NCBI RefSeq assembly: GCF_013350005.1
Contig: NZ_JABVWW010000002.1
Location: 62,001-126,000 of the forward strand
Direction: 5' to 3'
DNA length: 64,000 bases
Source of the DNA: Methylocystis silviterrae
GTDB lineage: Bacteria; Pseudomonadota; Alphaproteobacteria; Rhizobiales; Beijerinckiaceae
Part shown: in pieces, positions 24,521 through 47,167 of the stretch
Layout: every line of letters starts with the position of its first letter
Numbering within the stretch: the stretch's first letter is position 1
Notes under the pieces: generated by a model
What the model saw: the letters and a program-made list of their open reading frames with translations, nothing else
Database searches by the model: none
What the model was told of the DNA's origin: nothing
Translations under genes and position numbers: made by a program

Positions 24521-25039
24521 CTATAGGACGCAGCGGGCGCGGGTCGTCAGATCGGCGCCCCGCATCTTTCGCACAAGTCGCGCCAAATCCGCGCCTTCGG
24601 CCGCCGCCGCGAGCGCGCTCTTTGGCGCAATGAGCCCGACCGGACGCGCCAGACCCGGCGCAAGGCGGGTGATCAGCGAATCCGGAGCCAGCCGAAGCGT
24701 TCGGGCGCGGCTGGCGTCGCCATGGGCGAAAAAATCCTGCGCTTCCTCGGCGAAGCCGCGCTCCACGGCGAAACCGGCCAGCAGAAGGAGAAGATGGTCG
24801 CGCCGCGCCGCTTTCAGCGCCTGCGCCAAGCCGTCGCCGGCGTGCGGCGCTTCGATCAGCGCGCAGCCGGCTTCGTCGGCGATCCCGTCCAGGCCTCGTC
24901 CCGGCGCGGCGAGGATCAGTGCGTCGGCGATCAGTCCCTGAACGCACGATTCGACGAGCGAACCGAGGCTGCGCGCCACGGCCGCCGGGCGCAATGGCGC
25001 GCCGGGAGAGTCGAAGGCGATCAGCGCGGCGGTCAGCAT
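24521..25039 (-). CDS. Conserved hypothetical protein, possibly glycosyltransferase-like fold
   Basis: 172 residues from the ATG at 25039 (MLTAALIAFDSPGAPLRPAAVARSLGSLVESCVQGLIADALILAAPG). The alternation of strand, helix and acidic turns (FDSPG, AGCALIEAP, RRDHLLLLLAGFAVERGF) hints at a nucleotide-sugar-transferase-like alpha/beta fold, but no DXD motif is present. The frame remains open far upstream in antisense to the next gene, which I regard as artefact. Divergent from the NAD(P)HX repair gene, with a 120-base promoter gap. Function not assigned. Confidence 0.55.
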   Translation of the reverse strand: MLTAALIAFDSPGAPLRPAAVARSLGSLVESCVQGLIADALILAAPGRGLDGIADEAGCALIEAPHAGDGLAQALKAARRDHLLLLLAGFAVERGFAEEAQDFFAHGDASRARTLRLAPDSLITRLAPGLARPVGLIAPKSALAAAAEGADLARLVRKMRGADLTTRARCVL

Positions 25040-33922: not shown

Positions 33923-34486
33923 ATGTCCAGTGCGGAGCGGCGGGGGCGAGAGGTGGTCGGCGTTTTCTCGGACGGCTATGTGCTCGAGAGCGCTGTCGAG
34001 GAATTGTTGAATTCGGGGTTCGATCTCGGCGACATCAGCCTGCTTGCGGGCGAAAAGGCGATCGTCGGCAAGCTCGGCCATAAATATGAAAAGGTCGAAG
34101 CCGCCGAAGACGACGGCGCCGCCCCCCGCGTGGCCTACGCGCCGAGGGAGTCTTTGAGCAAGAAAGAGGGCGCGATCATTGGCGGTCTTGTCTATGTCGG
34201 CGCCACTGTGGCGGCCGGCGCGGCGCTCGCGTCAGGCGGCGCCCTCGCGATGCTTCTCGTGAGCGGCCTGATCGGCGCGGAATTTGGCGGCCTCATCGGT
34301 GGCGTGCTTGGCGAGTTCATGGAGGAGCGTCACGCGAAATATCTCCAGGAGCAACTTGACCATGGCGGCCTGTTGCTCTGGGTGCGAACGCGGAACGCCG
34401 CGCTGGAGGAAACCGCCAAGCGCGTTATCGCCAAACATTCCGGCCGCGACGTGCACGCCCATGATGTGCCTGCCGCCGCGGCGTGA
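33923..34486 (+). CDS. Glycine-zipper membrane protein, general-stress type
   Basis: 187 residues. The N-terminal half has the YflT-like pattern of general stress proteins: EVVGVFSDGYVLESAVEELLNSGFDLGDISLLAGE. A glycine- and alanine-rich hydrophobic stretch follows (GAIIGGLVYVGATVAAGAALASGGALAMLLVSGLIGAEFGGLIGGVLGEFM), then a soluble tail (GLLLWVRTRNAALEETAKRVIAKH), in which LLLWVR resembles the repeated strand of such domains. GGAGG precedes the ATG at 33923. Adjacent hemerythrin and catalase genes fit a stress role, but the molecular function is unknown. Confidence 0.7.
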   Translation: MSSAERRGREVVGVFSDGYVLESAVEELLNSGFDLGDISLLAGEKAIVGKLGHKYEKVEAAEDDGAAPRVAYAPRESLSKKEGAIIGGLVYVGATVAAGAALASGGALAMLLVSGLIGAEFGGLIGGVLGEFMEERHAKYLQEQLDHGGLLLWVRTRNAALEETAKRVIAKHSGRDVHAHDVPAAAA

Positions 34487-34508
34487 ATGAACATTGAGGC
34501 GGCCGCGA

Positions 34509-35030
34509 TCAGGCCGCTTTTTTCATCAGTTCGGCTTTACGCTTCGATAGCTTGACGCCCAAGGCGTCGAGGTCGATCTCGCTCTTGCGCGCCTCGGGAA
34601 ACATTTCCTGCTCTTCTTCCTGGACATGGTGCATGACATATTCGCCAAGCACCTTGACCTTTGCGTCGAACAGATGGTCCTTCGGTGACATCGATCGGAT
34701 CTCGGCGATCAGCTGTTTGGCGCTTGCGTGCTCAACTTCGGCTTCGTCGAGAAGCTCGTCGTCGTCGATGCTCTTGCGTAGCGCCGGATAGAAGATTTCC
34801 TCTTCGATCTTGGCGTGAACCGTCAGCGCGGCGCAAATTTTTCGGGCGAGCTCTTCCTTCTCGGTTTCCTTATCGAGCTTTTCGTACTGTTTGAACCAGG
34901 TTTTCACCTCTCGGTGATCCTCCCTCAGGAGCTTGATGGCGTCCGCCGTTTTGGAGGCGCTGGCCGACGTCTTCGCGCCCGTTCGGTGCTTCGACCTTTT
35001 CGTGCTGCTGCCCGTGCTTGCCGTTGGCAT
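34509..35030 (-). CDS. Hemerythrin HHE domain protein
   Basis: 173 residues. A basic, Ser/Thr/Lys-rich leader of about 30 residues precedes a four-helix hemerythrin-like domain. Iron-ligand motifs are LLREDHREVKTWF, HAKIEEEIFYPAL, EVEHASAKQLIAEI and YVMHHVQEEEQEMFPEA. Such cytoplasmic proteins bind a di-iron centre and are linked to oxygen, NO or iron-stress handling. The gene lies between the stress-type membrane protein (convergent) and catalase (same strand, upstream). Confidence 0.9.
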   Translation of the reverse strand: MPTASTGSSTKRSKHRTGAKTSASASKTADAIKLLREDHREVKTWFKQYEKLDKETEKEELARKICAALTVHAKIEEEIFYPALRKSIDDDELLDEAEVEHASAKQLIAEIRSMSPKDHLFDAKVKVLGEYVMHHVQEEEQEMFPEARKSEIDLDALGVKLSKRKAELMKKAA

Positions 35031-35084
35031 TTTGGTTCTCCTGTTGCGCGGTTGTAACCTGGCTGTTCTGTCTGCGTGACCGCA

Positions 35085-37259
35085 TCACGCATCCAGATCG
35101 ACCGTCAGTTCTCTGGGCCAGTAACGAAGTTCGGCGCAGGCCGCGATGAACGCGGCCGCGTCCTTGACGGTCGCAAGCTGAATGCACGCTTCATCCAGCG
35201 CGTCGGCGACGCCGGCTTTCTCCAGCAGCGGCAACGCGCTCTCGGTGAAGCCGATGAACTTGCAATGCGCGAAGGCGTCGCTTGCAAAATCGCGTGCGGC
35301 GGCATCGGCGACGAGATCGGCGACGCCGGTCTCCGACGCGACGATGGCGACGGCGTCATAGAGCACCGACGGTCCACCGTCGATCTTTTGCGCGGCCGGC
35401 TGCATGGCGCCGTCGTCAAGCACCACGCCGCCGATGTGGGGCGCGACAATCTCGTAAACCGCTCCGATCTTTTCGACGGCCTCGATCAGCGCCTTCAACA
35501 GCTTCGCATCGGCGCCGTCCGTCGCGAGAATCCCGAGCTTGCGCCCCGTGAAGGATTTTGGATGCGCCAAAATGCTCAATGGGGTGGACGGGGGAAGCTC
35601 TTGCCGAGTCGGGCGCGCGGCCTTCGCCGGATCGGGCATTTCAAGCCGCAAGCCGTCAGCAACGCGCGTCGCGAGCGCAACGTCAATGTTTAAGAGATGC
35701 GAGACGACTCGGGAGCGAACGTCCGGGCGCTCGCATTTGCTCAGTTCGAATACGAGCGCATCGCCAATGTGTTTGCGCTCAATCGGCGCTTGGCTGATGA
35801 AGAATTGCCGCGCCTGGCTGTAATGATCGGCGAAGCTTTCGGAGCGACGTCTCGTCTTCGGCCCGGCCACTTCTTCCGGGAATGACGTGAAGCCGCGCTC
35901 GGGATTCTCGCGCGGACCGCCGAGCGCGCCCCAGCTGTTGGGTTCGTAATTGACGCGGCCCTTCGGGTTCTTCATCGCCATATGCCCGTCCTGTTGGAAA
36001 TGCGCCATCGGGCAGCGCGGCGCATTGACGGGAAGATGGGTGAAGTTCGGGCTGCCGAGCCGCTTCAACTGTGTGTCGAGGTAGGAGAAGTTGCGGCCTT
36101 GGAGCAGCGGATCGTCGCTGAAATCGATGCCAGGAACGATGTTCTGCGTGCAGAAAGCGACTTGTTCGGTTTCCGCGAAGAAATTGTCGACCGTTCGGCC
36201 GAGCACGAGGCGCCCGACGACCTGCACCGGAATCTGCTCTTCGGGAATAATCTTGGTCGAGTCGAGAATGTCGAATTCGAATGTGTCGGCGAACGCTTCG
36301 TCAAAGAGCTGAAGGCCGAGCTCCCATTCCGGGAAATGTCCGCCCTTGATGGCGTCCCACAGATCCCGCCGATGGAAATCGGGATCGGCGCCATTGATCT
36401 TGACCGCTTCGTTCCAAAGCACCGATTGCAGACCGAGCTTCGGCTTCCAGTGAAACTTGACGAAGGTCGACTTGCCATCTGCGTTGACGAAACGGAAGGA
36501 GTGAACCCCAAAACCTTCCATGAAGCGGAAGGAGCGCGGAATGGCGCGATCCGACATGATCCACATGATCATGTGAAAGCTTTCCGGCGACAGCGAAACG
36601 AAGTCCCAGAAGTTGTCATGCGCCGTTTGCGCCTGGGGAAAGCCGCGATCCGGTTCAGCCTTCGCCGCATGGATCAAATCCGGAAACTTGATCGCATCCT
36701 GAATGAAGAACACCGGGATGTTATTGCCGACGAGATCCCAATTGCCTTCCTTGGTATAGAACTTCACCGCGAAGCCTCTCACGTCGCGCGCGAGATCGGC
36801 GGATCCCTTACTTCCGGCCACGGTGGAGAATCGCACAAACACCGGCGTCTGCTCGCCAACCCGCTGGAAAAGATCGGCGTGCGTGACGTCTGCGAGCGAC
36901 TTCGTGAGTTCGAAATAGCCATGCACGCCGAATCCCCGCGCGTGAACGACGCGTTCCGGGATGCGCTCGTGATCGAAGTGGAAGATTTTCTCGCGGAAAT
37001 GGAAGTCTTCGATGAGGCTCGGACCGCGCGCGCCTATGCGTAGCGTGTTTTGGTCATCGGAAACCGGGATGCCCTGCTGCGTGGTGAGCGTCTCAACCGC
37101 GTCGTTGGCGGTCTGGTGCGTTTCACCGCCGTCGCCTTGCGGCTGCGCGTAGGACATCTCAGTCTCGGCTGCGACAAGATCGGGCTGCTCGGTTTGACTC
37201 CTTCCAGCGTTCGCCATGGCGGATGCGCTCGAGGACGACGGTTTGCGTTTTGACCCCAT
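35085..37259 (-). CDS. katE: Large-subunit catalase, HPII type
   Basis: 724 residues, the size of E. coli HPII. The heme catalase core includes [15 protein letters not shown] (catalytic His), [50 protein letters not shown] with the catalytic Asn, and [19 protein letters not shown] with the proximal-side region before it. The C-terminal flavodoxin/DJ-1-like domain starts near [20 protein letters not shown]. It converts H2O2 to water and oxygen. GGAG precedes the ATG at 37259. An in-frame start at 37427 would add an unrelated 56-residue leader. Confidence 0.95.
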
Positions 37260-37758
37260 AGGAAACTCCGAAGAAGCGGCGATTGGACGCGAGCGCACGT
37301 GAGAGCGAAACCTCGGGCGATCTGACTTGTTCCCCGGGCAGGAAAAATTCTCTCTGGAAGCGCAGAGCGTCGAAGACGTTTGACACGAGGACGGGCCAGC
37401 CCATGGAAAACTCGCAAGTGTTTCCACTGCCGACGCAGCTCAAACCAAATGACGCTGAGCGGCGAGATGTGTGCCGTAAAGAACATTTGCGCAAGAAGCG
37501 CCAGCCCGTCCGGTGTGCTCGTTGGACCGCGCCAAGCGTAATCTTCGCGCGTGATCGCGCGAGAAGGATTTTAGCAATAAGGGCTGTCGCTTAAGCGCAT
37601 CGGCGCCACATAGGACGGAGTGTCCGCCATCAAGCGCACGCCGACCGCCGGCTCTCGTCTGGTTACAGCAGGCGCGATCATCATGTCTCCGGTCTCAACG
37701 CGATAGCTCGCTGCCTGTGTAAGGACGAAACGCGGCGACAGAGGATGGAGAACCGGGA
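37260..37758. other. Gap of about 500 bases between katE and the HAD gene
   Basis: Both flanking genes point away, so promoters of both must lie here. Several short frames cross it, for example a minus-strand one reading [20 protein letters not shown], which has a protein-like look but no recognisable family and no good ribosome binding site. I see no convincing gene; a decayed one is possible. Confidence 0.4.
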
Positions 37759-38679
37759 ATGGCGCTTAGGGAGCAGATCGACGAGGAGCTCAGGGCGTTT
37801 TTGGCGGAGACCAATTTCACCGGAGCCGGCGCGCTCATAACCGACCTTGACGGAACTGCGGTGCATGAGTTTGAAGGCCGCATCGTCATTCCTGATCCGG
37901 TCGCCTGCGGCTTGAAGCGCCTCAATGATCTTGGCCGCCCCATTGTGCTGAACACGCTACGATTTCCGCTGAACGTCATCCGCACCTTCGGGCGCGAGTG
38001 GTATGCGATCACCAATGCGCCCTTGCCGCTCGTCTCGCTCAACGGCGGCGTCGTCGGCTATCTCAGAGAAGATGCGGCAGGAGACATCATCTTCGAGGAA
38101 CTCGATGCTTTTCCGCTTGAGCCGCTGGAAATCGACGAGGTGCTGACCGGCGTGCGCGGGCTGCTTGAGAATGGCGTCGATGAGCTTCTTGTCTTCTACT
38201 ACACGCGCGACTGGACGCTTGGCGAGACGATCTGGACGCCTGTCAGAGAGAAGATCCCCCATCTTCGCGCGAAATACGCCAGCGCGTCGTCAATCGTCTG
38301 CCTCCCGATGGATGATCTTCGCGAGTCCTTGATGGCCCAGGACATCTGCATGATGTTTCTGCTCGTCGAAGCCCCGCAGGATCGCCTGATGGCCTATCAG
38401 CACGTCAAGCGCTCGAATTTCGCGACGCGCAAGGGTGTCGACAAATTGTTCGGCGTGCGCGCCATCGCGGAGCGGCTCGGCGTCGACCTGCAGGCCTCTG
38501 TCGGCTGCGGCGACACGCAGATGGATTCATTTCTTTCCGGCGTCGGCCTTGCCGTCCATGTCGGGTCGCGCGATCTGGAATATAAAGGCCTGCTGCGGAC
38601 GGTGAAGATTGAAAGCTCCCAGGAGCTTGGCGAACTGCTGTTTCGCCTTGGCGGCCTGCAGAGCGAGGCGCTGCAATGA
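37759..38679 (+). CDS. HAD-superfamily (type IIB-like) phosphatase
   Basis: 306 residues. HAD motifs in order: motif I ALITDLDGTAVHEFEG near residue 30, motif II LNTLRFPL, the lysine of motif III in NFATRKGVDKLFGVRAIAERLGVD, and motif IV VGCGDTQMDSFLSGVGLAVHVG. A cap domain lies between II and III, as in Cof/sucrose- and mannosyl-phosphate phosphatases. The next gene, a phosphotransferase, overlaps it by four bases, so a phosphatase-kinase couple on a small metabolite is likely. Substrate unknown. Confidence 0.85.
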   Translation: MALREQIDEELRAFLAETNFTGAGALITDLDGTAVHEFEGRIVIPDPVACGLKRLNDLGRPIVLNTLRFPLNVIRTFGREWYAITNAPLPLVSLNGGVVGYLREDAAGDIIFEELDAFPLEPLEIDEVLTGVRGLLENGVDELLVFYYTRDWTLGETIWTPVREKIPHLRAKYASASSIVCLPMDDLRESLMAQDICMMFLLVEAPQDRLMAYQHVKRSNFATRKGVDKLFGVRAIAERLGVDLQASVGCGDTQMDSFLSGVGLAVHVGSRDLEYKGLLRTVKIESSQELGELLFRLGGLQSEALQ

Positions 38680-39617
38680 CGGCTGCGCAAGAAGCGCCAA
38701 TCAATCCACGCAAGGCGCGATCCAATGCGGGCAAAATTATCGAGCATCACCTCGGGTCAAAACCAAAGCGCATCGTGGCGCGCGGCGGCGGCCTCACCAA
38801 TTTCGTGTTCGAGGTCCGTCATGCGGAAGGCGATTTCATCGTCCGCATGAACACAACGCCGGACAAGCTAAAGGATTATCTTAAAGAGCAATGGGCGATC
38901 GCCAAGGCCAGCGAGGCTGGCGTGCCGACCGCGAAAATTCTGGAGGTCGGCGCCGACATCATCGGCATGCCTTATATGGTGCTTCCGAAGGTTGAGGGGC
39001 AGGAGGCGACGCATCATCCCGAACGCCTCGCGATTCTGCGGGAGATGGGACGTCTGACCGCGCTGATCCACTCGGTGAAGACATCTGGCTTTGGCCAAAC
39101 CTTCGATTGGTCGGACAATACGCTCTCGCGCAAAGAGACCTGGAAGGAGTATCTGCACGGGGAATTGAAAATTGAAGCGCGCGTCGACCTGCTCGATGCG
39201 CGGGATATGTTGGACGCCGCCCAGCTTAAACGTCTGAAATCGGTCGTTCGCGACATGGAGCGCTGGGACCCGTCGCCCGTTCTCAACCACGGCGACATGC
39301 GGCTAAAGAACGTGGTCGCCGACGCCTCGGGGGCGATCACCGCCGTGATCGACTGGGAGTGCTGCGCCTCCAACGTTGCGCCTTACTGGGATCTTTCGAT
39401 GGCGCTTCATGATCTCTCGGTCGACGCCAAGCAGGAGTTTCTCATGGGCTATGGCCTGACGGAGGAGAAGATCCGCGAAATGGCGCCGATCATAAAGGCG
39501 ATCAACCTCATCAATTACGCGCCCTATGTGGAGCGGGCCGCTGCGGAAAAGGACAAAGCTCGGCTTGAACAATATCGCACGCGCTTGTCTGGGGCGCTGG
39601 ATCTATATTCGCTTTGA
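38676..39617 (+). CDS. Aminoglycoside-phosphotransferase-fold small-molecule kinase
   Basis: 313 residues of the APH/choline kinase fold. IVARGGGLTNFVFEVRHAEGDFIVRMN forms the nucleotide-binding hairpin with the catalytic lysine replaced by context RMN, EATHHPERLAILREMGRLTALIHSV follows, and the Brenner motif LNHGDMRLKNVV and AVIDWECCASNVAPYWDLSMALHDL hold the catalytic and magnesium-binding aspartates. The family includes kinases for sugars, choline and amino alcohols. Translationally coupled to the HAD phosphatase upstream. There is no reason to call it an antibiotic-resistance enzyme. Confidence 0.82.
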   Translation: MTAAQEAPINPRKARSNAGKIIEHHLGSKPKRIVARGGGLTNFVFEVRHAEGDFIVRMNTTPDKLKDYLKEQWAIAKASEAGVPTAKILEVGADIIGMPYMVLPKVEGQEATHHPERLAILREMGRLTALIHSVKTSGFGQTFDWSDNTLSRKETWKEYLHGELKIEARVDLLDARDMLDAAQLKRLKSVVRDMERWDPSPVLNHGDMRLKNVVADASGAITAVIDWECCASNVAPYWDLSMALHDLSVDAKQEFLMGYGLTEEKIREMAPIIKAINLINYAPYVERAAAEKDKARLEQYRTRLSGALDLYSL

Positions 39618-39640
39618 CCGCATTCACCCTTTATCCAGTC

Positions 39641-39669
39641 GCCCTTTATAGCTCAGTGGTTGGAAAGCC
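39641..39669 (+). other. tRNA-like 5' fragment
   Basis: GCCCTTTATAGCTCAGTGG followed by TTGGAAAGCC looks like the acceptor strand, positions 8-9 and D-arm of a tRNA (compare xATAGCTCAGTxGGTAGAGC). No anticodon arm or T-arm follows, so it is a remnant or an integration scar and not a functional tRNA. Confidence 0.45.
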
Positions 39670-39744
39670 TGGAACCGTGCTGGCGCGCGTAATATCCTGA
39701 GACGCCGCGACGACCGCCGGTTCGCAAAGACGTGAGAGGGAAAC

Positions 39745-40260
39745 ATGTTCGATAAATTTGTCCTCGCCTTAGTTTCAATCGCCCTCATGACGGGCTTCGC
39801 AAGCGCGGAGGAGCGAACCGCCGATGTCGTCGACAACAAAGGGAAGGGGATAGGGTCCATCGAGGTCAGACAGGGTCCGCATGGAGTCGTTCTTCGTGTC
39901 ATGCTGCGGCCGGGCGCGCTCGCGCCGGGCTGGCACGGCGTCCATCTGCACGAAATTGGCGATTGCTCCGACATCGAGAAATTCATGCACTCGAAGGGTC
40001 ATATAAATCCGTCAAATGCCGAGCATGGGTTCCTCAATCCCAAGGGGCCGCACCCGGCGGATCTGCCGAATGTCTATGCATATTCCGATGGCTCCGCGCA
40101 GGCGGAAATGTTCGTCGACGGCTTGTCCTTGAGCGGGGGTAAGATCAATCTCCTTGACGCAGATGGGTCGGCGGTCGTGGTGCATACGAGCCCTGACGAC
40201 CACATGTCGCAGCCGATTGGCGGCGCCGGCGCGCGCGTCGCCTGCGCTGTGTTGAAGTAG
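39745..40260 (+). CDS. sodC: Periplasmic Cu/Zn superoxide dismutase
   Basis: 171 residues. A signal peptide (MFDKFVLALVSIALMTGFASA) precedes the SOD_Cu domain. Metal ligands are present: GWHGVHLHEIGDC (copper His pair and disulfide Cys), the SKGHINPSNAEHGFLNPKGPHPADLPN loop (zinc His and Asp), and VVVHTSPDDHMSQPIGGAGARVACAV (last copper His, conserved Arg and second Cys). It removes superoxide in the periplasm. It lies just outside the left end of the putative tRNA-Ser island. Confidence 0.93.
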   Translation: MFDKFVLALVSIALMTGFASAEERTADVVDNKGKGIGSIEVRQGPHGVVLRVMLRPGALAPGWHGVHLHEIGDCSDIEKFMHSKGHINPSNAEHGFLNPKGPHPADLPNVYAYSDGSAQAEMFVDGLSLSGGKINLLDADGSAVVVHTSPDDHMSQPIGGAGARVACAVLK

Positions 40261-40277
40261 CGTCGGCGCGACGCGCG

Positions 40278-40291
40278 TGGCGGAAGGGGTG
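40278..40291. repeat. 14-nt direct repeat of the tRNA-Ser 3' end (putative att site)
   Basis: TGGCGGAAGGGGTG here is identical to 47077-47090, the last 14 bases of the tRNA-Ser gene including CCA (read on the minus strand), in the same orientation. The 6.8 kb between the copies holds accessory genes. This is the pattern left by tRNA-targeted integration. Confidence 0.5.
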
Positions 40292-40379
40292 TGCCGTCCC
40301 GGCCCGGCCCAGGTTCGTCTCACAAGATTGCGCTGGGCCGATACGCCGAACGCGCCATCAGAATTGATGGTGCAGGCCA

Positions 40380-41180
40380 CTAGCGCCGCGCAGAATCCGG
40401 CTTGGCCATCCTGCGATGCTGTTTGGCGAGGAAGGTCGCGGGCATGGCGTGTATGAAGGTCGCGGAAATCTTGTTCCTCCATCCGCTTACGACGTGCGCC
40501 TGGCCCTGCATCATCGCGTCGAAGCCGTCGCGCGCGACGTCAGCCGCATTCGCCTTCCTGGCCTGCCCGACGCGGGTATCCAGCATGTCGGCGCGGCGAA
40601 AAAAGTCCGTCTCGGTCACGCCCGGCATAAGCAAGGAAACCGTAACGGTGGTGTCCTTCAGTTCGTTCCTCAGCGCGAAAGCGAAATTCTCGAGAAACGC
40701 TTTGGCGCCATTGTAAACGGCCTGGAAGGTTCCCGGCACCATGCCGGCGATTGAGCCAACGATGAGAATGCGCCCAGAGTTTCGGTTTCGCATGTCGCGG
40801 CCAAATTTTTGGATCGCATAGACTGTTCCGGTGATGTTGGTGTCGATGACATCACGAACCTTTTGAAAGTCTTGATCGAGGAAGGCGTTGCCCAGTCCAA
40901 TGCCCGCGTTGGCGATGAGGACGTCAACGGGCCGGCCGAATTGCTGAGCTGCGTCATAAAGCCGATCGACGCCTTCGATCGTCGAAAGATCAGCTTCAAT
41001 CGCGACAACCCTAGCGCCTCGCGCTGCGAGACTTGCGGCGGCGTCATATATGCGCGCCTTGTTGGATGCGATTGCGACATCAAAGTTATTGACGACGCAA
41101 ACTTGCGCCAGCTCGAATCCGATGCCGACTGAAGCGCCGGTGACGACCGCAAGCGGACGGCCGTTGGAAGTATGATCCAT
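40380..41180 (-). CDS. Short-chain dehydrogenase/reductase
   Basis: 266 residues, classical SDR: AVVTGASVGIGFELAQ (TGxxxGIG cofactor site), VVAIEADLST, DVLIANAGIGLGNAF (NAG), the catalytic Ser in RILIVGSIAGMVPGT, YNGAKAF (YxxxK with Lys) and LLMPGVTETDFF. It oxidises or reduces an unknown substrate with NAD(P). AAAGGAG sits seven bases before the ATG at 41180. It is the leftmost gene of the putative island and is divergent from copC. The last 20 residues are basic (AKQHRRMAKPDSARR). Confidence 0.9.
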   Translation of the reverse strand: MDHTSNGRPLAVVTGASVGIGFELAQVCVVNNFDVAIASNKARIYDAAASLAARGARVVAIEADLSTIEGVDRLYDAAQQFGRPVDVLIANAGIGLGNAFLDQDFQKVRDVIDTNITGTVYAIQKFGRDMRNRNSGRILIVGSIAGMVPGTFQAVYNGAKAFLENFAFALRNELKDTTVTVSLLMPGVTETDFFRRADMLDTRVGQARKANAADVARDGFDAMMQGQAHVVSGWRNKISATFIHAMPATFLAKQHRRMAKPDSARR

Positions 41181-41499
41181 GACGCTCTCCTTTAGGGGAT
41201 ACATACAACCTGTTTCTGAACTGGCTCCCCCGTCGACATCGACAATAGGCGCGCGCACTTTTCCTTTCGTTCGTTCGTCATCAAGCTTGCTCTAAGGCGA
41301 CGACAAATGTCCGCATCAACGCATCGACAACGAGAGCGAGCAGGCGAACGACCTGCAGGGTGGGGCGCGCTTTCGGCGACAAATGCTCGAAGGGACAGCG
41401 CAACAAACATCGGCGATGCTCCGCTTGCCGGTATACGCGCGCGACTTAGATGCAATGACGTTGACGGCCGAAGGCGCTGGTTTTGAACTCGGGCTTACG

Positions 41500-41868
41500 A
41501 TGATCCTACGAAAAAAATTACCTTTTCTTCTGTCGCTTATCCTAGCGTTCGCGCTTGTGCGCGCTCCCTGCCTCGCGCATGCGGCTCTGATCTCGGCTTC
41601 GCCTCAGGATGGCGCAACGGTTCCAAGCGGAGAAGTCGTCATTCAGCTTCGGTTCAATAGCCGCATCGACTCGAAGCTTTCGCGTCTCACGCTTCTCAAG
41701 GCGGCAGATCAAAGCGTCGTTCAGCCTCTCGAAACGAGCCCCGTATCAGAGGGGCTAAAAGCGAGAGCGCCGGACTTGGGGGCGGGCGCGTATACGCTCG
41801 AGTGGCAAATCCTGAGCCTTGACGGCCACCTGACGCAAGGCAGGCTGAATTTTCGCGTGGAACGCTGA
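41500..41868 (+). CDS. copC: CopC-family periplasmic copper-binding protein
   Basis: 122 residues. A signal peptide (RKKLPFLLSLILAFALVRAPCLAHA) leads to the CopC beta-barrel: ALISASPQDGATVPSGEVVIQLRFNSRIDSKLSRLTLL and GAYTLEWQILSLDGHLTQGRLNFRV. The mature N-terminus follows a His in AHA, and DGH supplies another ligand position; these correspond to the Cu(II) site of the family. The ATG at 41500 is chosen as the start of the signal peptide. copD follows after two bases. The 319-base gap upstream (41181-41499) carries no gene I can support. Confidence 0.85.
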   Translation: MILRKKLPFLLSLILAFALVRAPCLAHAALISASPQDGATVPSGEVVIQLRFNSRIDSKLSRLTLLKAADQSVVQPLETSPVSEGLKARAPDLGAGAYTLEWQILSLDGHLTQGRLNFRVER

Positions 41869-41870
41869 TT

Positions 41871-43487
41871 ATGCAATCCTTCATCGCGTTGTACGGTTTC
41901 TTGGACCTCGTGCTGCGCGCATATCTCCTCGCAACGCAATCGATCGTCGTGGGCGGCGTAGCGTTTCTTACGTTCGTTCTGTCTCCCCTTGACGGGAGGC
42001 TAGACGTCGAGGAGGCGCCAATTGCACGACGTTGCCTTCGCATTCTTTTTTGGAGCTGCTGTGCTTCGGTCTTCGGCGAGATCGTCGCCGTGGGCGTGCT
42101 GACTGCGATGCTCGTTGGAACGTTGCAGGTGGATTTTGCGGTCGCAGCCAGCGCCGACGCCGTCGTCAGTCATTTCATCGCCATGATTCTGTCGGGCGCG
42201 CTGGCGCTTTACGCCCGCCTCGACGCCCGCAGCTTTTTCATGTGGAGGGGGGGCGCCGTTGCTTTAGCGTTGCTGCTGGTTTGTGCGCATGTGGGCGTGA
42301 CGCATGCGGCGAGCCGCCCCGTCGCCTCTGCGTTGCTGGTGACGACCGAGATTGTGCATGTGCTTGCAGCGGCGATCTGGATCGGCGGCATTCCGTTCTT
42401 TTTGGTCGCGCTCGGAATGACGAAGAGCGGCGAAGCGCGGCGATTGATCGCCTCCAAATTCTCGCGCAACGCCATGGGGGCGGTGGGAGCGTTGATTATT
42501 GCCGGCCTCTTGATGATGACGCGCCACACTCCTGATCTCAGCGCATTGTATGAAACGAATTACGGAATGCTGCTCACCACCAAAATCGTGCTGCTGTTTG
42601 GCTTGCTTTGCTTTGCCGCCGCTAATCTTTCGACAACGCGCAAGCTTTGGCGGGCTTCTTCCGCTCCTATCAGAAGATTATTGCGTTTCGCTGAGGTGGA
42701 GGTGGGACTGGGCCTCGTTACGCTGTTTTGCGCCGCCGCTCTTGCGTCAGCCTCGCTCCCAATCGAAGGCGGCGCGGAGCGCACGAGTTTGTCTGAGATC
42801 ACGGCTCGCTTCGCACCGCGTTGGCCGAGTTTCCATAGTCCAGCGTATGCCGAGTTGTCTGCTGCGCAATCCGTCTCCAGCGTAGCCGAACCGGGAACGT
42901 CCAGCCCACTCAGCCCGGCGGACATTGCCTGGGCGGAGATGAATCATCATTTGGCGGGAGTTTTTGTTGTCCTCGTGGGCGTTTTCGCCTTGCTTGAGCG
43001 CCATCGGCGAACTGCGCCGATGATGCGTCATTGGCCTCTGCTATTTTTATTGCTTGGCGGCGTTCTGGTGATTCGCGCGGATGAAACCGCATGGCCCCTC
43101 GGACCCATAGGGTTCTTTGAAAGTCTTCGCGACCCTCAGATCGTCCAACACAAAGTTATTACGCTCCTCATTGCGACCTTTGCGATATTCGAATGGCAGG
43201 TTCGACGAGGCCGCTTCAAGTCCGACTGGCCAGCCTTCGTCTTCCCGATAACAACCGGCGCGGCGGCAGCGTTTCTATTGACGCACTATGGACACACGGA
43301 AGGCGCAGACGAGGTTCTGATCGCGATCAGTCATACACCTATCGCCTTGCTCGGGGTTGTCTCCGCAAGTGCGCGCTGGCTGGAAATACGTTTATCGGAC
43401 ACCTTCGCGGGTCGAATAGGTGGTTATGTCTGGCCCGTCGCATTCATGCTATCGGGCTTCTTGCTGCTGCTCTACCGAGAACAGTGA
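41871..43487 (+). CDS. copD: CopD-family copper-resistance membrane protein
   Basis: 538 residues with about twelve membrane helices. The family core lies near residues 155-300: TTEIVHVLAAAIWIGGIPFFLVAL (HxxAAxxWxGG), KFSRNAMGAVGALIIAGLLM and TNYGMLLTTKIVLLFGLLCFAAANL. A second membrane half follows (HHLAGVFVVLVGVFALLERHRR to the end), longer than classical 310-residue CopD and ending in SGFLLLLYREQ. CopC and CopD together take copper from the periplasm across the inner membrane. Copper genes of this kind are common in methanotrophs, but they also occur widely elsewhere. Confidence 0.88.
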   Translation: MQSFIALYGFLDLVLRAYLLATQSIVVGGVAFLTFVLSPLDGRLDVEEAPIARRCLRILFWSCCASVFGEIVAVGVLTAMLVGTLQVDFAVAASADAVVSHFIAMILSGALALYARLDARSFFMWRGGAVALALLLVCAHVGVTHAASRPVASALLVTTEIVHVLAAAIWIGGIPFFLVALGMTKSGEARRLIASKFSRNAMGAVGALIIAGLLMMTRHTPDLSALYETNYGMLLTTKIVLLFGLLCFAAANLSTTRKLWRASSAPIRRLLRFAEVEVGLGLVTLFCAAALASASLPIEGGAERTSLSEITARFAPRWPSFHSPAYAELSAAQSVSSVAEPGTSSPLSPADIAWAEMNHHLAGVFVVLVGVFALLERHRRTAPMMRHWPLLFLLLGGVLVIRADETAWPLGPIGFFESLRDPQIVQHKVITLLIATFAIFEWQVRRGRFKSDWPAFVFPITTGAAAAFLLTHYGHTEGADEVLIAISHTPIALLGVVSASARWLEIRLSDTFAGRIGGYVWPVAFMLSGFLLLLYREQ

Positions 43488-43839
43488 CTGGTAGCAGGAT
43501 GCATCCTAAGAAGCCGACGCACCCAAAAAATACTTAAATGCAATTGTTACGCAATAAAAGTGGCGGGCCACGCCCCACGATGATGAGCACTATGCCTACG
43601 CTGTGGCGCAATGCTCAAATCCTGGAGGATCTGTGCGGGCTGAGTAGCGGCAGGTAGTCACCCTTACCGTGGTTGATCAGTTTGGTGCGCGATTCTTTCG
43701 TGCCTATTCGTCGCGATCGACACGTGACAGACGTGCATCGACGCGTTCAGTTTCTTGTTCGAACTGAGTGGCGGTTGACGCGTAATTTGGGTTGGATTTG
43801 CATAAGTCTGATGCTGGCGGAGGGTTTGGCCGCCCCGGC
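43488..43839. other. Non-coding gap after copD
   Basis: About 350 bases, less GC-rich than the surroundings, with no frame showing a recognisable protein. GTGGCGGGCCACGCC near 43560 could form a weak hairpin that ends copCD transcription. Otherwise I see nothing in it. Confidence 0.4.
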
Positions 43840-44322
43840 ATGCGCAAGGCGCTCGCCGACGCCGTGGAGGCCTTCTTGAACCTATTGGACCAGATCGACG
43901 GCGACGCCGATCGTGAGGCAGACAACCCACCCGAAGACGACGCGCCCTGCGAAGACGTGGGCGACGATGAGCCAAGCCTCGGGAGTGCGGGGAGCACTGC
44001 GCTCAGCTGGTCGTACAGCCAGATCGGCTGGGCCCAGGGCGCCGACGACGACCGGGAAGACGAAAGCGAGCTGCTTGAGCCGGTCGGCGACGAAGAACCA
44101 GCGTTCGGCGCGACGACGGCGATGAACCAAGAGCACGGCTGGCGATGGTCGCCTTTCGAAAGCACCGAGGAAGGCGAGCCTTCCCTGGGCTGGACCGGCC
44201 ATGGGCGCGGCCATCCCGAAATGGCGCTGCGCGGCTATGCCGACGATCGGGAGGAGGATAACGATCTCGAATGGAGTATTGGCCCGGGCGACTTGGAGTT
44301 TGATTGGACTGATTACCTCTGA
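43840..44322 (+). CDS. Acidic protein with repeated D-E-P-(S/A)-(L/F)-G motifs
   Basis: 160 residues, very rich in Asp, Glu, Gly and Trp. It opens with a short helix (MRKALADAVEAFLNLLDQIDGDADREADN), then three related blocks: VGDDEPSLGSAGS, VGDEEPAFGATTAM and EEGEPSLGWTGHG, and ends DLEWSIGPGDLEFDWTDYL. Related-looking proteins with EPSLG blocks occur in alphaproteobacterial accessory regions, function unknown. The ATG at 43840 is the first good start; an upstream TTG at 43792 is possible. The composition suggests a disordered, DNA-mimic-like polypeptide, which is inference only. Confidence 0.6.
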   Translation: MRKALADAVEAFLNLLDQIDGDADREADNPPEDDAPCEDVGDDEPSLGSAGSTALSWSYSQIGWAQGADDDREDESELLEPVGDEEPAFGATTAMNQEHGWRWSPFESTEEGEPSLGWTGHGRGHPEMALRGYADDREEDNDLEWSIGPGDLEFDWTDYL

Positions 44323-44448
44323 GAGCTTGGACCTTCGACACATCCAACGCCACAACTCGCCAGCTTCGCATTTAACGCATTCGGCTCGCGCGGTGTGCGG
44401 CGCGCGCCTCGCGGGCTCTCAACCATCTTACGGCGAGAACCAACACAC

Positions 44449-44475
44449 GAGGGTTGGCAAAGTTTGCCAACCCTC
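44449..44475. promoter_or_regulatory. Perfect 27-bp palindrome
   Basis: GAGGGTTGGCAAA and TTTGCCAACCCTC are perfect 13-base arms around one G. A one-base centre is unsuited to an RNA hairpin terminator and fits a dimeric protein site instead. It lies between the acidic-protein gene and a convergent membrane-protein gene. Confidence 0.6.
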
Positions 44476-44517
44476 ATTCGCCGATGACCAGGCAAAAAAT
44501 ACTGGCGAAGCGTCGTC

Positions 44518-44847
44518 TTAGAGCCGCCTTGTGCGCCTCATGAATGAACGCCCGAGAAGGCCAACGAGATAGCCGCCGATCGTGATCGCGAAATAGACGA
44601 CGATCACGAAAGCCCAGCGGTCGCTCGCAGAGGCTACCCTGCGGAATGTCTCGGTCAGATAAGTGAGATCAATGAAACCGTTCGCGAAGAATCCGCTAGC
44701 GATGGCGAGCGCGGGGACTATCCACCAGGGAGCCCTGAAATAGCCGAGGAGAGCCGCGAGCAGAAAGACGATTAAACCGAAAATGTGCAAGAATTCTAGG
44801 AAAATCGCTTGGGAAAGCAAGCCGATGAATCGGATCAGCCAAAGCAT
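44518..44847 (-). CDS. Small membrane protein, unknown function
   Basis: 109 residues with three or four hydrophobic segments (AIFLEFLHIFGLIVFLLAALLGYF, PWWIVPALAIASGFFANGF, WAFVIVVYFAITIGGYLVGLLG) and a basic end (RSFMRRTRRL). I do not recognise the family. It is likely an inner-membrane protein with a cytoplasmic tail. It sits alone in the putative island, and the stretch before its start holds the two palindromes at 44996 and 45055, which could control it. Confidence 0.55.
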   Translation of the reverse strand: MLWLIRFIGLLSQAIFLEFLHIFGLIVFLLAALLGYFRAPWWIVPALAIASGFFANGFIDLTYLTETFRRVASASDRWAFVIVVYFAITIGGYLVGLLGRSFMRRTRRL

Positions 44848-44995
44848 CTGACGCCTCTCTGCGCAAGCTCAGACCATTGTCTTATCTGAATTCGACCGCA
44901 GCAACTATATGGTTCGCCCGCTGCGAAGCGCGGAGGTCTCGGCCGGCCGCTTAGGCGGGCTGGGCGCGTGACGCGCGCCGCTTCCATCGTGGGGT

Positions 44996-45010
44996 GTAGA
45001 CGTTGTCTAC
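44996..45010. promoter_or_regulatory. Inverted repeat GTAGAC-gtt-GTCTAC
   Basis: Perfect six-base arms with a three-base centre. It lies 45 bases from a second, longer inverted repeat, both upstream of the small membrane protein gene. Candidate operator. Confidence 0.4.
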
Positions 45011-45054
45011 AGTTCGGACACCTGTCGGCCACTTGGAAGGCACTGTTTCCATGG

Positions 45055-45084
45055 GGTGTTGACAGTGTTGCCAGTGTCAACACC
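45055..45084. promoter_or_regulatory. Inverted repeat GGTGTTGACA-N10-TGTCAACACC
   Basis: Perfect ten-base arms separated by GTGTTGCCAG, which itself half-repeats the arm (GTGTTGxCA). The TTGACA inside one arm also equals a consensus -35 box. Probable protein-binding site, or a hairpin in a transcript. Confidence 0.45.
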
Positions 45085-45160
45085 ATTTAGCCCATTGCAC
45101 CTAGACGCCCCCGGACCCCCGCCTTACCCGTATAGGTTGTGTACAGGAAGGACCCGCTGA

Positions 45161-45439
45161 ACGCTGCTCGCCTCGATTTCTCTTTACGCCAAGCAGGCAA
45201 ACGATGAAGAGTTGATGCGCCCAGCGACGCGCATTCGCGACCGCGCCATCCGCAGATGCGGCGAGTTGCTCAAGCAGATCGAGCCAGCGAAGAACCAATA
45301 TGATGCAACTGCTAGGGCCGTCACCGGCCATAGCAGCAGATACGATGCGGCGTCTCAAGCCGGGATGTCGCCACGCCAAGCGAAGCAGGCAATCCGCGTC
45401 GCCAATGTTCCAGCGGAAGAATTCGAGCGCCTGGCGTGA
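45161..45439 (+). pseudogene. 5'-truncated remnant of a ParB-neighbour/phage-type DNA-modification accessory protein
   Basis: The frame is open from just after an in-frame TGA at 45158 and reads ASISLYAKQANDEEL, RIRDRAIRRCGELLKQIEP and MSPRQAKQAIRVANVPAEEFERLA. This follows the pattern of a phage- and island-associated family (Y-A-(R/K)-QANDxEL, RAxRRxGELLxxME, then a helix-turn-helix and (V/I)PxEEFE). The usual N-terminal third and the segment after the helix-turn-helix are missing and no good start exists, so it is a relic. It overlaps nothing and is divergent from the membrane gene. Confidence 0.6.
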
Positions 45440-45517
45440 GGCTGAAAAAAAGCCCGCGGCTTTCACGGCCGTGCGAGTGGCTAACGATCGTCTCTGTGAG
45501 AGGCGCCGCCCCGCCAA

Positions 45518-45898
45518 TTATTGCTGCCCGCCGATTTCTTGCCAATAAGGCCGAGCGCTATAATGCTGATGCACGCGCGTCTCCCACTCACGATCCATCC
45601 AGCTTTCGTCGGTGTAGTCCGGCGCGCTCTCGACCAAGTCCTGACTCACATCCGTCACGTATCCTCGACGGTCCCTGTCGTATTTCAGCGATGTCCAAGG
45701 CAATGGATGATGACCCGGATGCAGGCACATGAAGCCGCAGAAGTTGACGACCGCGTAAAGAACTCGGCCCGACACCATATCGATCATGAGATGGTCGATT
45801 TTGCCGATTTCTTTACCGCCCGTATCGTAAACGGCCGTGCTATCGATATGCTGGCTCGAGATCAAGTTGGTTTTCCGATTTGCGGCTGCAGTAGCCAT
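45518..45898 (-). CDS. PRC-barrel domain protein
   Basis: 126 residues. After a short leader (MATAAANRKTN) comes a PRC barrel: LISSQHIDSTAVYDTGGKEIGKIDHLMIDMVSGRVLYAVVNFCGFMCLHPGHHPLPWTSLKYD. The C-terminal part (VTDVSQDLVESAPDYTDESWMDREWETRVHQHYSARPYWQE) is the usual companion segment of stand-alone alphaproteobacterial PRC proteins. GGGAG precedes the ATG at 45898. PRC barrels serve in photosynthetic reaction centres and RimM; the role of stand-alone forms is unknown. Confidence 0.85.
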   Translation of the reverse strand: MATAAANRKTNLISSQHIDSTAVYDTGGKEIGKIDHLMIDMVSGRVLYAVVNFCGFMCLHPGHHPLPWTSLKYDRDRRGYVTDVSQDLVESAPDYTDESWMDREWETRVHQHYSARPYWQEIGGQQ

Positions 45899-46167
45899 TT
45901 GCACTCTCCCTTGCGTTTGGCCGCCACCCGCCGCCTTCCAGCAACATCCCCTGCTCAGCTCTTGTTGGGAGTGGGTTGGACGTCTCGCATCAAGGCAAAA
46001 AGCTAGCGGCGTCATTTGAACCGAGAACGCATAACACCCGTGCAATGTTCCTGGGCCGCCACCCTTGTCCAGGCTGGTCCACCGATCTGTTCAAGGTCGC
46101 CGAGGCGACGCCGGCCAGATAGCGCCGAGGCAAGCGTGGCAGGCCGAGCGCCGCAAGGACCAATACG

Positions 46168-46365
46168 ATGACCGAAGCTGAGAAGCTAATACGAGGAATA
46201 GAATCGCTGCGGGAGACTATCCGGCGCGAGTGGTTCAACATCAGGCTGGATACTCTGACGCATGACGACCGAGTCGTCATTCGAGAGCATATCGAACGCT
46301 GCCACGCCGATCTGAAAATCCTGCTGGATCGGCTTTGGAATTTGGATGACGGAAATTCAAACTAG
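46168..46365 (+). CDS. Small hypothetical protein
   Basis: 65 residues, MTEAEKLIRGIESLRETIRREWFNIRLDTLTHDDRVVIREHIERCHADLKILLDRLWNLDD. It looks like two helices joined by TLTHDDR, with amphipathic spacing. AAGGACC lies upstream of the ATG. I do not recognise the family; it is one of several short orphan genes in the right part of the putative island. Confidence 0.5.
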   Translation: MTEAEKLIRGIESLRETIRREWFNIRLDTLTHDDRVVIREHIERCHADLKILLDRLWNLDDGNSN

Positions 46366-46476
46366 CCACCTTATTGTCGGTTCAATTCGGCTCATAGCGC
46401 CTTAATTGACCAAAGGCGTCTGCAATCAGGCTTCAATCCGAGGGCGAGACCTGAGAAAAACGTGGAAGGAGCCAGT

Positions 46477-46719
46477 ATGCATCAGGATTTGATCGACGAG
46501 GCCTTTCGAGCCGCCAATCGAATGGCCGCCGATCGCGGGATAAGCCTCGACGGAACTGCGCTGATGCGGGCTGTGCTTGCTGTCGCCGGGGAAGGCGAGG
46601 GGCAGAACGAGCCTGAGGAAATTGCCGAGGACGCCATGGAGCTATTGGGCAAGGATAGCGGGGCCCTCATCCTCTCGGCGAGGCCGCAGACCATTCTAGC
46701 GCCTCACACGCTGGGGTGA
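46477..46719 (+). CDS. Small hypothetical protein
   Basis: 80 residues, MHQDLIDEAFRAANRMAADRGISLDGTALMRAVLAVAGEGEGQNEPEEIAEDAMELLGKDSGAL. AAGGAG is placed seven bases before the ATG at 46477, a strong signal. The pattern suggests a mostly helical soluble protein; family not recognised. It ends four bases before a degenerate hicB-like gene, so the two once could have formed an operon. Confidence 0.5.
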   Translation: MHQDLIDEAFRAANRMAADRGISLDGTALMRAVLAVAGEGEGQNEPEEIAEDAMELLGKDSGALILSARPQTILAPHTLG

Positions 46720-46723
46720 AACG

Positions 46724-46939
46724 ATGATCTTGAAGCATGACGGATATTTCGCTCTGGTCAGCTATGATGAGGGCGACGAATTGATGCACGGCAGCGTCGT
46801 GAGCGCTCGCGTCGTTCTGCATTCGCCGGCCGCGACATCGACGAATTGAAAGCCGCTTTCGCCGACACGGATCGCCGACTACCGGGGATGGCGCCGGGAG
46901 CGTGGCGTCGAGCCGGTGAGGGCGAGTTGGGGCCGATGA
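46724..46939 (+). pseudogene. HicB-like antitoxin gene broken by two frameshifts
   Basis: The first frame gives MILKHDGYFALVSYDEGDEL and then MHGSVV before stopping at 46849. Shifting frame near 46820 yields FAGRDIDELKAAFADT, and a second shift near 46878 gives IADYRGWRRERGVEPVRASWGR and a stop at 46937. The composite matches the HicB subfamily that reads HFxGRDxxELxxAFxxxVxDYLxxCxExGxxP. No HicA partner is adjacent. It is therefore a dead antitoxin relic. Confidence 0.65.
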
Positions 46940-47076
46940 AAACGACGATCACAAGCGCAGAGCGGCAAAGTTGCCCCTATGCAAGCTGAAGCGCCGTCCA
47001 AATGTAATACTCAGTGTCATACCATTGCCGGGTAAAATATTATTATCAAAGCAATTCAATGACTTATCAGTGTTTA

Positions 47077-47090
47077 TTGGCGGAAGGGGT
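47077..47090. repeat. Second copy of the 14-nt direct repeat (putative att site in tRNA-Ser)
   Basis: TGGCGGAAGGGGTG is the complement of the tRNA-Ser 3' end and is identical to 40278-40291. The tRNA is intact, as expected if integration restored its end. Confidence 0.5.
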
Positions 47091-47167
47091 GGGATTCGAA
47101 CCCACGGTGGAGTCGCCCCCACGCCGGTTTTCAAGACCGGTGCCTTAAACCACTCGGCCACCCTTCC
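47077..47167 (-). tRNA. tRNA-Ser (anticodon UGA)
   Basis: 91 bases with the class II long variable arm. GGAAGGG pairs with CCCTTCC; discriminator G and encoded CCA (CCGCCA) end the gene at 47077. The anticodon loop CTTGAAA gives UGA (serine UCA codons), and GGTTCGAATCC is the T-arm. The 3' end points toward the accessory region on the left, the side used by tRNA-targeting integrases. Confidence 0.97.

Follow-up and report, generated by a model that had tools for sequence, protein, structure and literature searches.

Between the sodC gene and a tRNA-Ser(TGA) gene of Methylocystis silviterrae lies the remnant of a tRNA-integrated island that carries no integrase. It is part of a 64-kb stretch of the genome (the window, in whose numbering all positions are given), and it consists of two blocks that meet at position 43561: block 1 (40278-43560) and block 2 (43561-47077). 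These are very probably the products of two successive insertions at the 3′ end of the tRNA gene, a hot spot, the second of them by an island of a large serine recombinase (LSR) family in which attP would lie inside the recombinase gene. The order of events, the placement of attP inside the gene and any effect of a swap of the protein's tail are what we infer from comparison of sequences. Genomes are given by G numbers, the window genome being G000. The boundaries are as follows.

39745-40260, plus strand: sodC, which in G020 forms the left side of the empty site
40278-40291, plus strand: left-hand copy of the 14 bases that end tRNA-Ser, where block 1 begins
47078-47167, minus strand: tRNA-Ser(TGA), the integration target, with its 3′ end at 47078

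The sequence TGGCGGAAGGGGTG occurs in one orientation at both 40278-40291 and 47078-47091. The right-hand copy forms the 3′ end of the tRNA gene, including CCA, and the identity shared by the two copies is exactly 14 bases. A first reading of the window from its letters alone (the sequence-only reading) had reported this repeat, and it is borne out: the 3.85-Mb genome holds two copies, and the reversed control none. From base composition, 0.1 exact copies would be expected per genome and 0.0008 per 64-kb strand. It is very improbable that the repeat is a chance match and the difference from G020 described below ordinary gene flux; the lack of a recombinase in block 1 would suit such an account, but the low expectation speaks against it, as does an empty site that joins exactly at the repeat.

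This empty site, which the sequence-only reading had predicted as a junction of sodC and the tRNA, was present in the close relative G020, where sodC is joined to tRNA-Ser via a single 14-mer. The flanks there match the window at 92% on the left (38778-40291) and at 93% on the right (from 47078), and they meet at that 14-mer; the same boundaries recur in relatives. A query of the tRNA with the right flank was matched in all 39 genus genomes, in some of them by short or tRNA-only pieces. In each of the 13 relatives whose junctions were printed, the DNA left of the tRNA end was unlike that of the window, with matches stopping at 47076-47078. In G010, G024 and G025, other DNA follows straight after sodC, from window position 40280-40283. 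Because of the empty site in G020 and the differing DNA beside the tRNA end in these 13 relatives, we conclude that integration in Methylocystis has repeatedly used the 3′ end of tRNA-Ser(TGA), a hot spot.

Among the marks by which tRNA islands are recognized, we found an intact target tRNA with a displaced fragment of its 3′ end at the far side, and an empty site in a relative. We found no integrase gene on the island, as the sequence-only reading had said: the window genome had no LSR at E 1e-30, and the window had no match at E <0.1 to the LSR of G027 or the tyrosine recombinase of G031 (both described below) except antisense tRNA. That reading had also held that relatives with the same genes but no repeat would speak against an island. 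Nominally there are two such relatives, since the left repeat has 2 mismatches in G012 and 5 in G038. Our reading of these mismatches is decay, because G005 keeps 13 of the 14 bases (1 mismatch).

Block 1 carries three genes, whose domains, named in the sequence-only reading, were confirmed by Pfam.

40380-41180, minus strand: SDR oxidoreductase, 266 aa counted from ATG (a possible GTG start would make it longer); Pfam adh_short, E 7e-43
41500-41868, plus strand: CopC, 122 aa from ATG; Pfam CopC, E 1e-18
41871-43487, plus strand: CopD, 538 aa; Pfam CopD, E 1e-18

The division into two blocks follows from G038 and G005, since both carry block 1 without the block 2 of the window. In G038, SDR-copCD is all that is present of the stretch, and about 120 bases separate copD from the tRNA. 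In G005, SDR-copCD is followed by a junction like that at 43561 and then by 1.6 kb of other DNA up to the tRNA. A single island, with 40278 and 47078 as attL and attR of one copCD-bearing insertion that decayed later, would agree with the empty site and with repeats that enclose the whole stretch. We consider it unlikely in view of G038 and G005, the latter with block 1, then the distal motif described below and other DNA, and because 43561 is an island end in itself. The single domesticated island with copper cargo of the sequence-only reading was accordingly given up: block 2 is a separate insertion with an island end at 43561, and copCD lies elsewhere in a related clade.

This clade was defined by a tree of the right flank with 15 rows. 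Clade A holds G000, G005, G012 and G038 (support 82/93), clade B holds G009, G010, G020, G024 and G025 (94/97), and the two together stand apart from the other six rows (100/100). SDR-copCD is at the tRNA site in all four clade A genomes. In clade B, copCD adjoins the gene for a histidine kinase of 555 residues. This locus shares a contig with the tRNA site in G010, G020 and G024, at a distance of about 24-35 kb, and is on a different one in G009 and G025; some clade B genomes have a broken SDR or none. The kinase locus has no adjoining copCD in any clade A genome (in G000, the contig ends 363 bases past the kinase), nor in the outgroups G027, G028 and G032.

Synonymous divergence from the window was 0.26-0.31 for copD (five clade B genomes) and 0.27-0.35 for sodC (three clade B genomes); it is a coarse guide only, as copD divergence within clade A (0.17-0.31) overlaps that between the clades. 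Because copD divergence between the clades resembles that of sodC, the data fit copCD being there before the clades split and moving in one lineage; a move in either direction and two separate gains are both compatible with this. The order sodC-SDR-copCD-tRNA might thus be the older one, with clade B having lost copCD, perhaps by excision between the 14-mers, and re-inserted it at the kinase locus. We regard this as possible but less likely than not. It would accord with a copCD that probably predates the split and with the three outgroups in which the kinase locus was found, all without copCD there, but the tRNA site in outgroups is also without copCD, and one move is needed either way, so that neither direction is favoured. 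Block 1 fits better as a relocated gene block of the lineage than as recent foreign cargo, and we rejected a copper-specific island, copCD being a lineage gene kept in two places. Within clade A, dN/dS against G005, G012 and G038 was 0.06-0.21 for SDR, 0.14-0.23 for copC and 0.10-0.21 for copD; with values of 0.06-0.23, the three genes are maintained under purifying selection. The CopC and CopD domains score above the Pfam cut-off but below the NCBIfam equivalog cut-offs, and a role in copper uptake is presumed.

The kind of element that made block 2 was suggested by other genomes. G027 has an intact LSR gene running into the same tRNA-Ser(TGA), and 42 codons of an LSR C-terminus are left at this tRNA in G012; in the window, no LSR gene abuts the tRNA 3′ end. 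The LSR has Resolvase, Recombinase and zinc ribbon domains in Pfam. Relatives of it were found in 12 of 39 genus genomes (E 1e-30) and in 24 of 297 genomes of the order (E 1e-100). With a short query, the window genome gave a weak C-terminal match on contig C62 (E 0.01, residues 1-31 of 43).

There were 46 distinct LSR matches, and abutment was tested on the 38 that were fetched as loci. In 25 of the 38, an in-frame TGG of the LSR gene coincides with the 3′ end of a called tRNA. The LSR reading frame continues into antisense tRNA. Six others adjoin the 3′ part of a tRNA only, three reach a contig end and four have no tRNA. The targets are tRNAs for Ser (TGA, CGA, GGA, GCT), Arg (CCG, ACG), Asn and Glu. 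Such an LSR family abutting tRNA 3′ ends was unreported in the open-licence papers searched; island databases (PMC12424338) may hold islands of this kind unremarked.

The far end of such an island is what starts block 2.

43561-43611, plus strand: attL, the distal end of an LSR-type island, with the orphaned recombinase tail WRATPHDDEHYAYAVAQ; the usual stop codon is lost

The motif of this junction had 17 matches in 12 of the 39 genus genomes: 8 of the 12 that have an LSR and 4 of the 27 that lack one. Another 7 matches came from the 23 LSR-bearing genomes of the order, 4 of which have the motif; the reversed control gave no match in either set. Fourteen of the 24 matches share contig and orientation with an LSR (8 matches, 6 genomes) or a tRNA 3′ end (6 matches), at 50 bases to 54 kb. 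In 17 of the 24, TGGCG stands exactly 17 bases ahead of the motif, and the DNA preceding it differs. At the distal end in G014, 16 bases of its tRNA-Arg are repeated.

Read from TGG in the LSR frame, the distal ends encode WRAxPDDDEHYVYAIAL. A stop codon follows directly after residue 17 in 12 of 18 in-register copies and one codon later in 3. For these 18 copies the entropy at codon positions 1, 2 and 3 was 0.56, 0.41 and 0.79, as in coding DNA. There is thus a conserved in-frame tail at the distal ends. The copy in the window likewise lies in frame, 17 bases after TGGCG begins; it has one mismatch and no stop, and it was itself among those used to draw the pattern. As a protein query, the tail was found in more of the LSR-bearing genomes of the order than the DNA motif was.

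Several further distal ends were seen. In G000, contig C21 has a second one with tail and stop intact (24904-24960; L123, L168), near the contig end, where the recombinase end is not seen, and contig C10 has a third, weak tail match. On contig C43 of G029 (L122:3201-3299), a distal end is about 50 bases from tRNA-Ser(GGA); this is an island deleted almost down to its two ends. A 16.7-kb contig of a viral collection, IMGVR_UViG_3300027965_000200 (L191, L200, L240), has LSR sequence at both ends with the tail motif between, and is possibly a tandem of islands.

When the LSR end and the distal end of an island were joined, the recombinase frame ran on through the tail in seven of eight trials in six genomes (G001, G002 twice, G011, G110, G259 and one of two copies in G014); for the longest spans, 46 kb in G002 and 54 kb in G011, both ends are assumed to belong to one island. 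In addition, 4 of 12 loci examined have the tail attached in frame to an LSR-like C-terminus: G321 (with an internal stop), G214, G193 and an Agrobacterium plasmid. These four relics are short and are either tandem-insertion junctions or remains of free forms. Beyond these 12 loci, a query of the LSR plus the tail had further matches over nearly its full length, for example in G384 and on contig C11 of G193.

The joins point to an attP within the last codons of the LSR gene. Crossover would take place in or next to TGGCG, which is antisense to the CGCCA end of the tRNA. On integration, the native tail of about 17 residues would stay at the far end of the island, and the integrated recombinase would take its tail from the antisense tRNA. 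A Hyphomicrobiales LSR family would then target tRNA 3′ ends via an attP in its own gene and swap an acidic-aromatic tail, DDDEHYVYAIAL, for an antisense-tRNA tail, so that the protein would record the state of integration. The tail may control the stability of the LSR or its directionality. By eye only, its character recalls the tmRNA tag of this genome, ANDNYAPVAVAA.

For the stretch as a whole, the reading by two insertions implies the following order. In an ancestor of clade A, the SDR-copCD block would have come to separate sodC from the tRNA, and the copy of the tRNA end at 40278 would be a trace of this event. Later, an LSR-family island would have entered the same tRNA end, with its distal end at 43561. 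Its LSR end at the tRNA would since have disappeared, and what remains is a decayed mosaic of small genes.

A number of observations weigh against this reading or its parts. The support for clade A is only 82/93, and no recombinase accounts for the 14-base left repeat. One of the two joins in G014 misses the frame by one base, and the four fused relics could be tandem-insertion junctions. Of 15 LSRs from plasmids, phage records and viral contigs that were followed to their end, not one had the native tail; a called tRNA adjoins only 5 of these 15, and no free form of the LSR island was found in these collections. Six plasmid LSRs of Enterobacter and Klebsiella align only up to the W-R codons. 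Because the tail was in none of the 15, we lowered our estimate for the swap of tails by an attP in the gene from slightly better than even to an even chance. The motif pattern was drawn partly from the copy in the window, and 6 of the 24 copies, with TGGCG missing or shifted, were dropped from the entropy count. The motif was absent at up to 3 mismatches from 19 of 23 LSR-bearing genomes of the order, and 10 of the 24 matches had neither LSR nor tRNA in reach, several of them because contigs end. These last two observations could also mean that the motif at 43561 is unrelated to recombinases and is a conserved small sequence standing there by coincidence. We think this improbable, as the spacing of TGGCG is kept while the flanking DNA differs, the LSR frame runs on through the motif, and the fused relics join the two.

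The agent of block 1 is a separate matter. The tyrosine integrase of G031 was set aside as its agent, because the right-flank match in that genome (loci L044:9937-11385 and L050) begins inside tRNA-Ser(TGA), a different style of insertion. The full tRNA-Ser(TGA) of G031 is on another contig and adjoins the gene for a tyrosine recombinase of 429 aa, an element of a second kind at this tRNA. In two viral-contig loci, L190 and L191, the LSR is followed by TGGCGGATGGGGTGT, with no called tRNA. This sequence agrees in 14 of 15 bases with window 40278-40292, the left repeat and the next base. Because of this resemblance, the left repeat and block 1 might also have been made by an LSR. Upstream of sodC, window 39645-39680 looks by eye like the 5′ part of a tRNA (TTTATAGCTCAGTGGTT...), with no call by ARAGORN or Rfam.

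Beyond its distal end, block 2 is a decayed mosaic of small genes.

43792-44322, plus strand: acidic open reading frame (ORF), 176 aa, with no assigned function; part has related DNA elsewhere in genus genomes
44518-44847, minus strand: small protein of 109 aa that looks hydrophobic by eye; many genus genomes have related DNA elsewhere
45212-45439, plus strand: phage-type protein fragment; phrog_33995, profile positions 61-133 of 224
45518-45898, minus strand: PRC-barrel protein, Pfam PRC E 2e-8; many genus genomes have related DNA elsewhere
46168-46719, plus strand: two small ORFs of 65 and 85 aa, present a second time, at 93%, on contig C8 of G000
46724-46921, plus strand: HicB-type relic; weak phrog_9151 match, E 0.004, with several indels against the C8 copy

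The two broken genes named in the sequence-only reading, a phage-type relic and a hicB relic, were thus recovered. The second copy on C8 covers 46103-46921, at 93%. As for the palindromes that the sequence-only reading had also mentioned, six were found in 43488-47091 with seed 8 and arms of at least 9 bases, the best a perfect 13-base pair at 44449-44475, and none with seed 9 and arms of at least 14.

Base composition was rejected as a test of the boundaries, because the zone of lower G+C begins near 34.5 kb and not at 40278. The comparison inside and outside that the sequence-only reading had proposed showed no change at 40278: the outer parts of the window both have a mean G+C of 0.64, and the lower value of 0.595 begins as early as 34485. 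Values below 0.60 also occur elsewhere in the window, for example at 60-63 kb.

34485-40277, no strand: outer zone of lower G+C, with a large catalase-like ORF, HAD, an APH-type kinase and sodC; itself variable in the genus

The label catalase-like for the large ORF comes from our own reading of its sequence. In the outgroup G019, the match to the window ends at 34484. Because of this, the plastic region may be about 12.6 kb when the outer zone is counted.

The stretch can be compared with known systems as they are described in the parts of the papers cited here. tRNA-targeted islands, including tandem arrays, in Islander/TIGER (PMC4383910, PMC12424338, the latter the newest island database) likewise show insertion at the tRNA 3′ end, a restored tRNA, a displaced fragment, repeated occupancy and an empty site in a relative; the recombinase at the present ends differs in being a large serine recombinase. 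Tyrosine integrases are reported as about 8-fold more abundant (PMC12884075), and the tRNA hot spots described for S. meliloti have tyrosine integrases, with one ambiguous case (PMC11476347). For Methylocystis SC2, two islands are reported, with no tRNA site named in the passage concerned (PMC3794950).

In phage Mx8, attP is inside int, and integration gives int a new 3′ end (PMC6070905). The arrangement proposed here would resemble it in both respects, whereas the enzyme is of an LSR family, the targets are tRNA genes and the new tail would come from antisense tRNA. The suicidal integrases of archaeal SSV type also have an att site within the integrase gene (PMC8371274), but these are tyrosine recombinases whose gene is fragmented on integration, while here only the last ~17 codons would be displaced. 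Among the serine mobilizable elements reviewed in PMC5704250, Tn4451-like elements are alike in having a single serine integrase and a very short shared end sequence; the site-specific serine elements described there disrupt protein genes, in contrast to the present family, which uses tRNA 3′ ends.

The finding points to integrases that a standard tRNA-island survey excludes by definition, serine recombinases using tRNA ends. If attP lies in the recombinase gene, the state of integration would be written into the C-terminus of the enzyme, which would make the family a direct test case for what sets the directionality of serine integrases; tools for insertion at tRNA ends with the tRNA kept might also be derived from it. 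It also means that successive insertions can be resolved by comparison of relatives even in a small stretch free of integrases.

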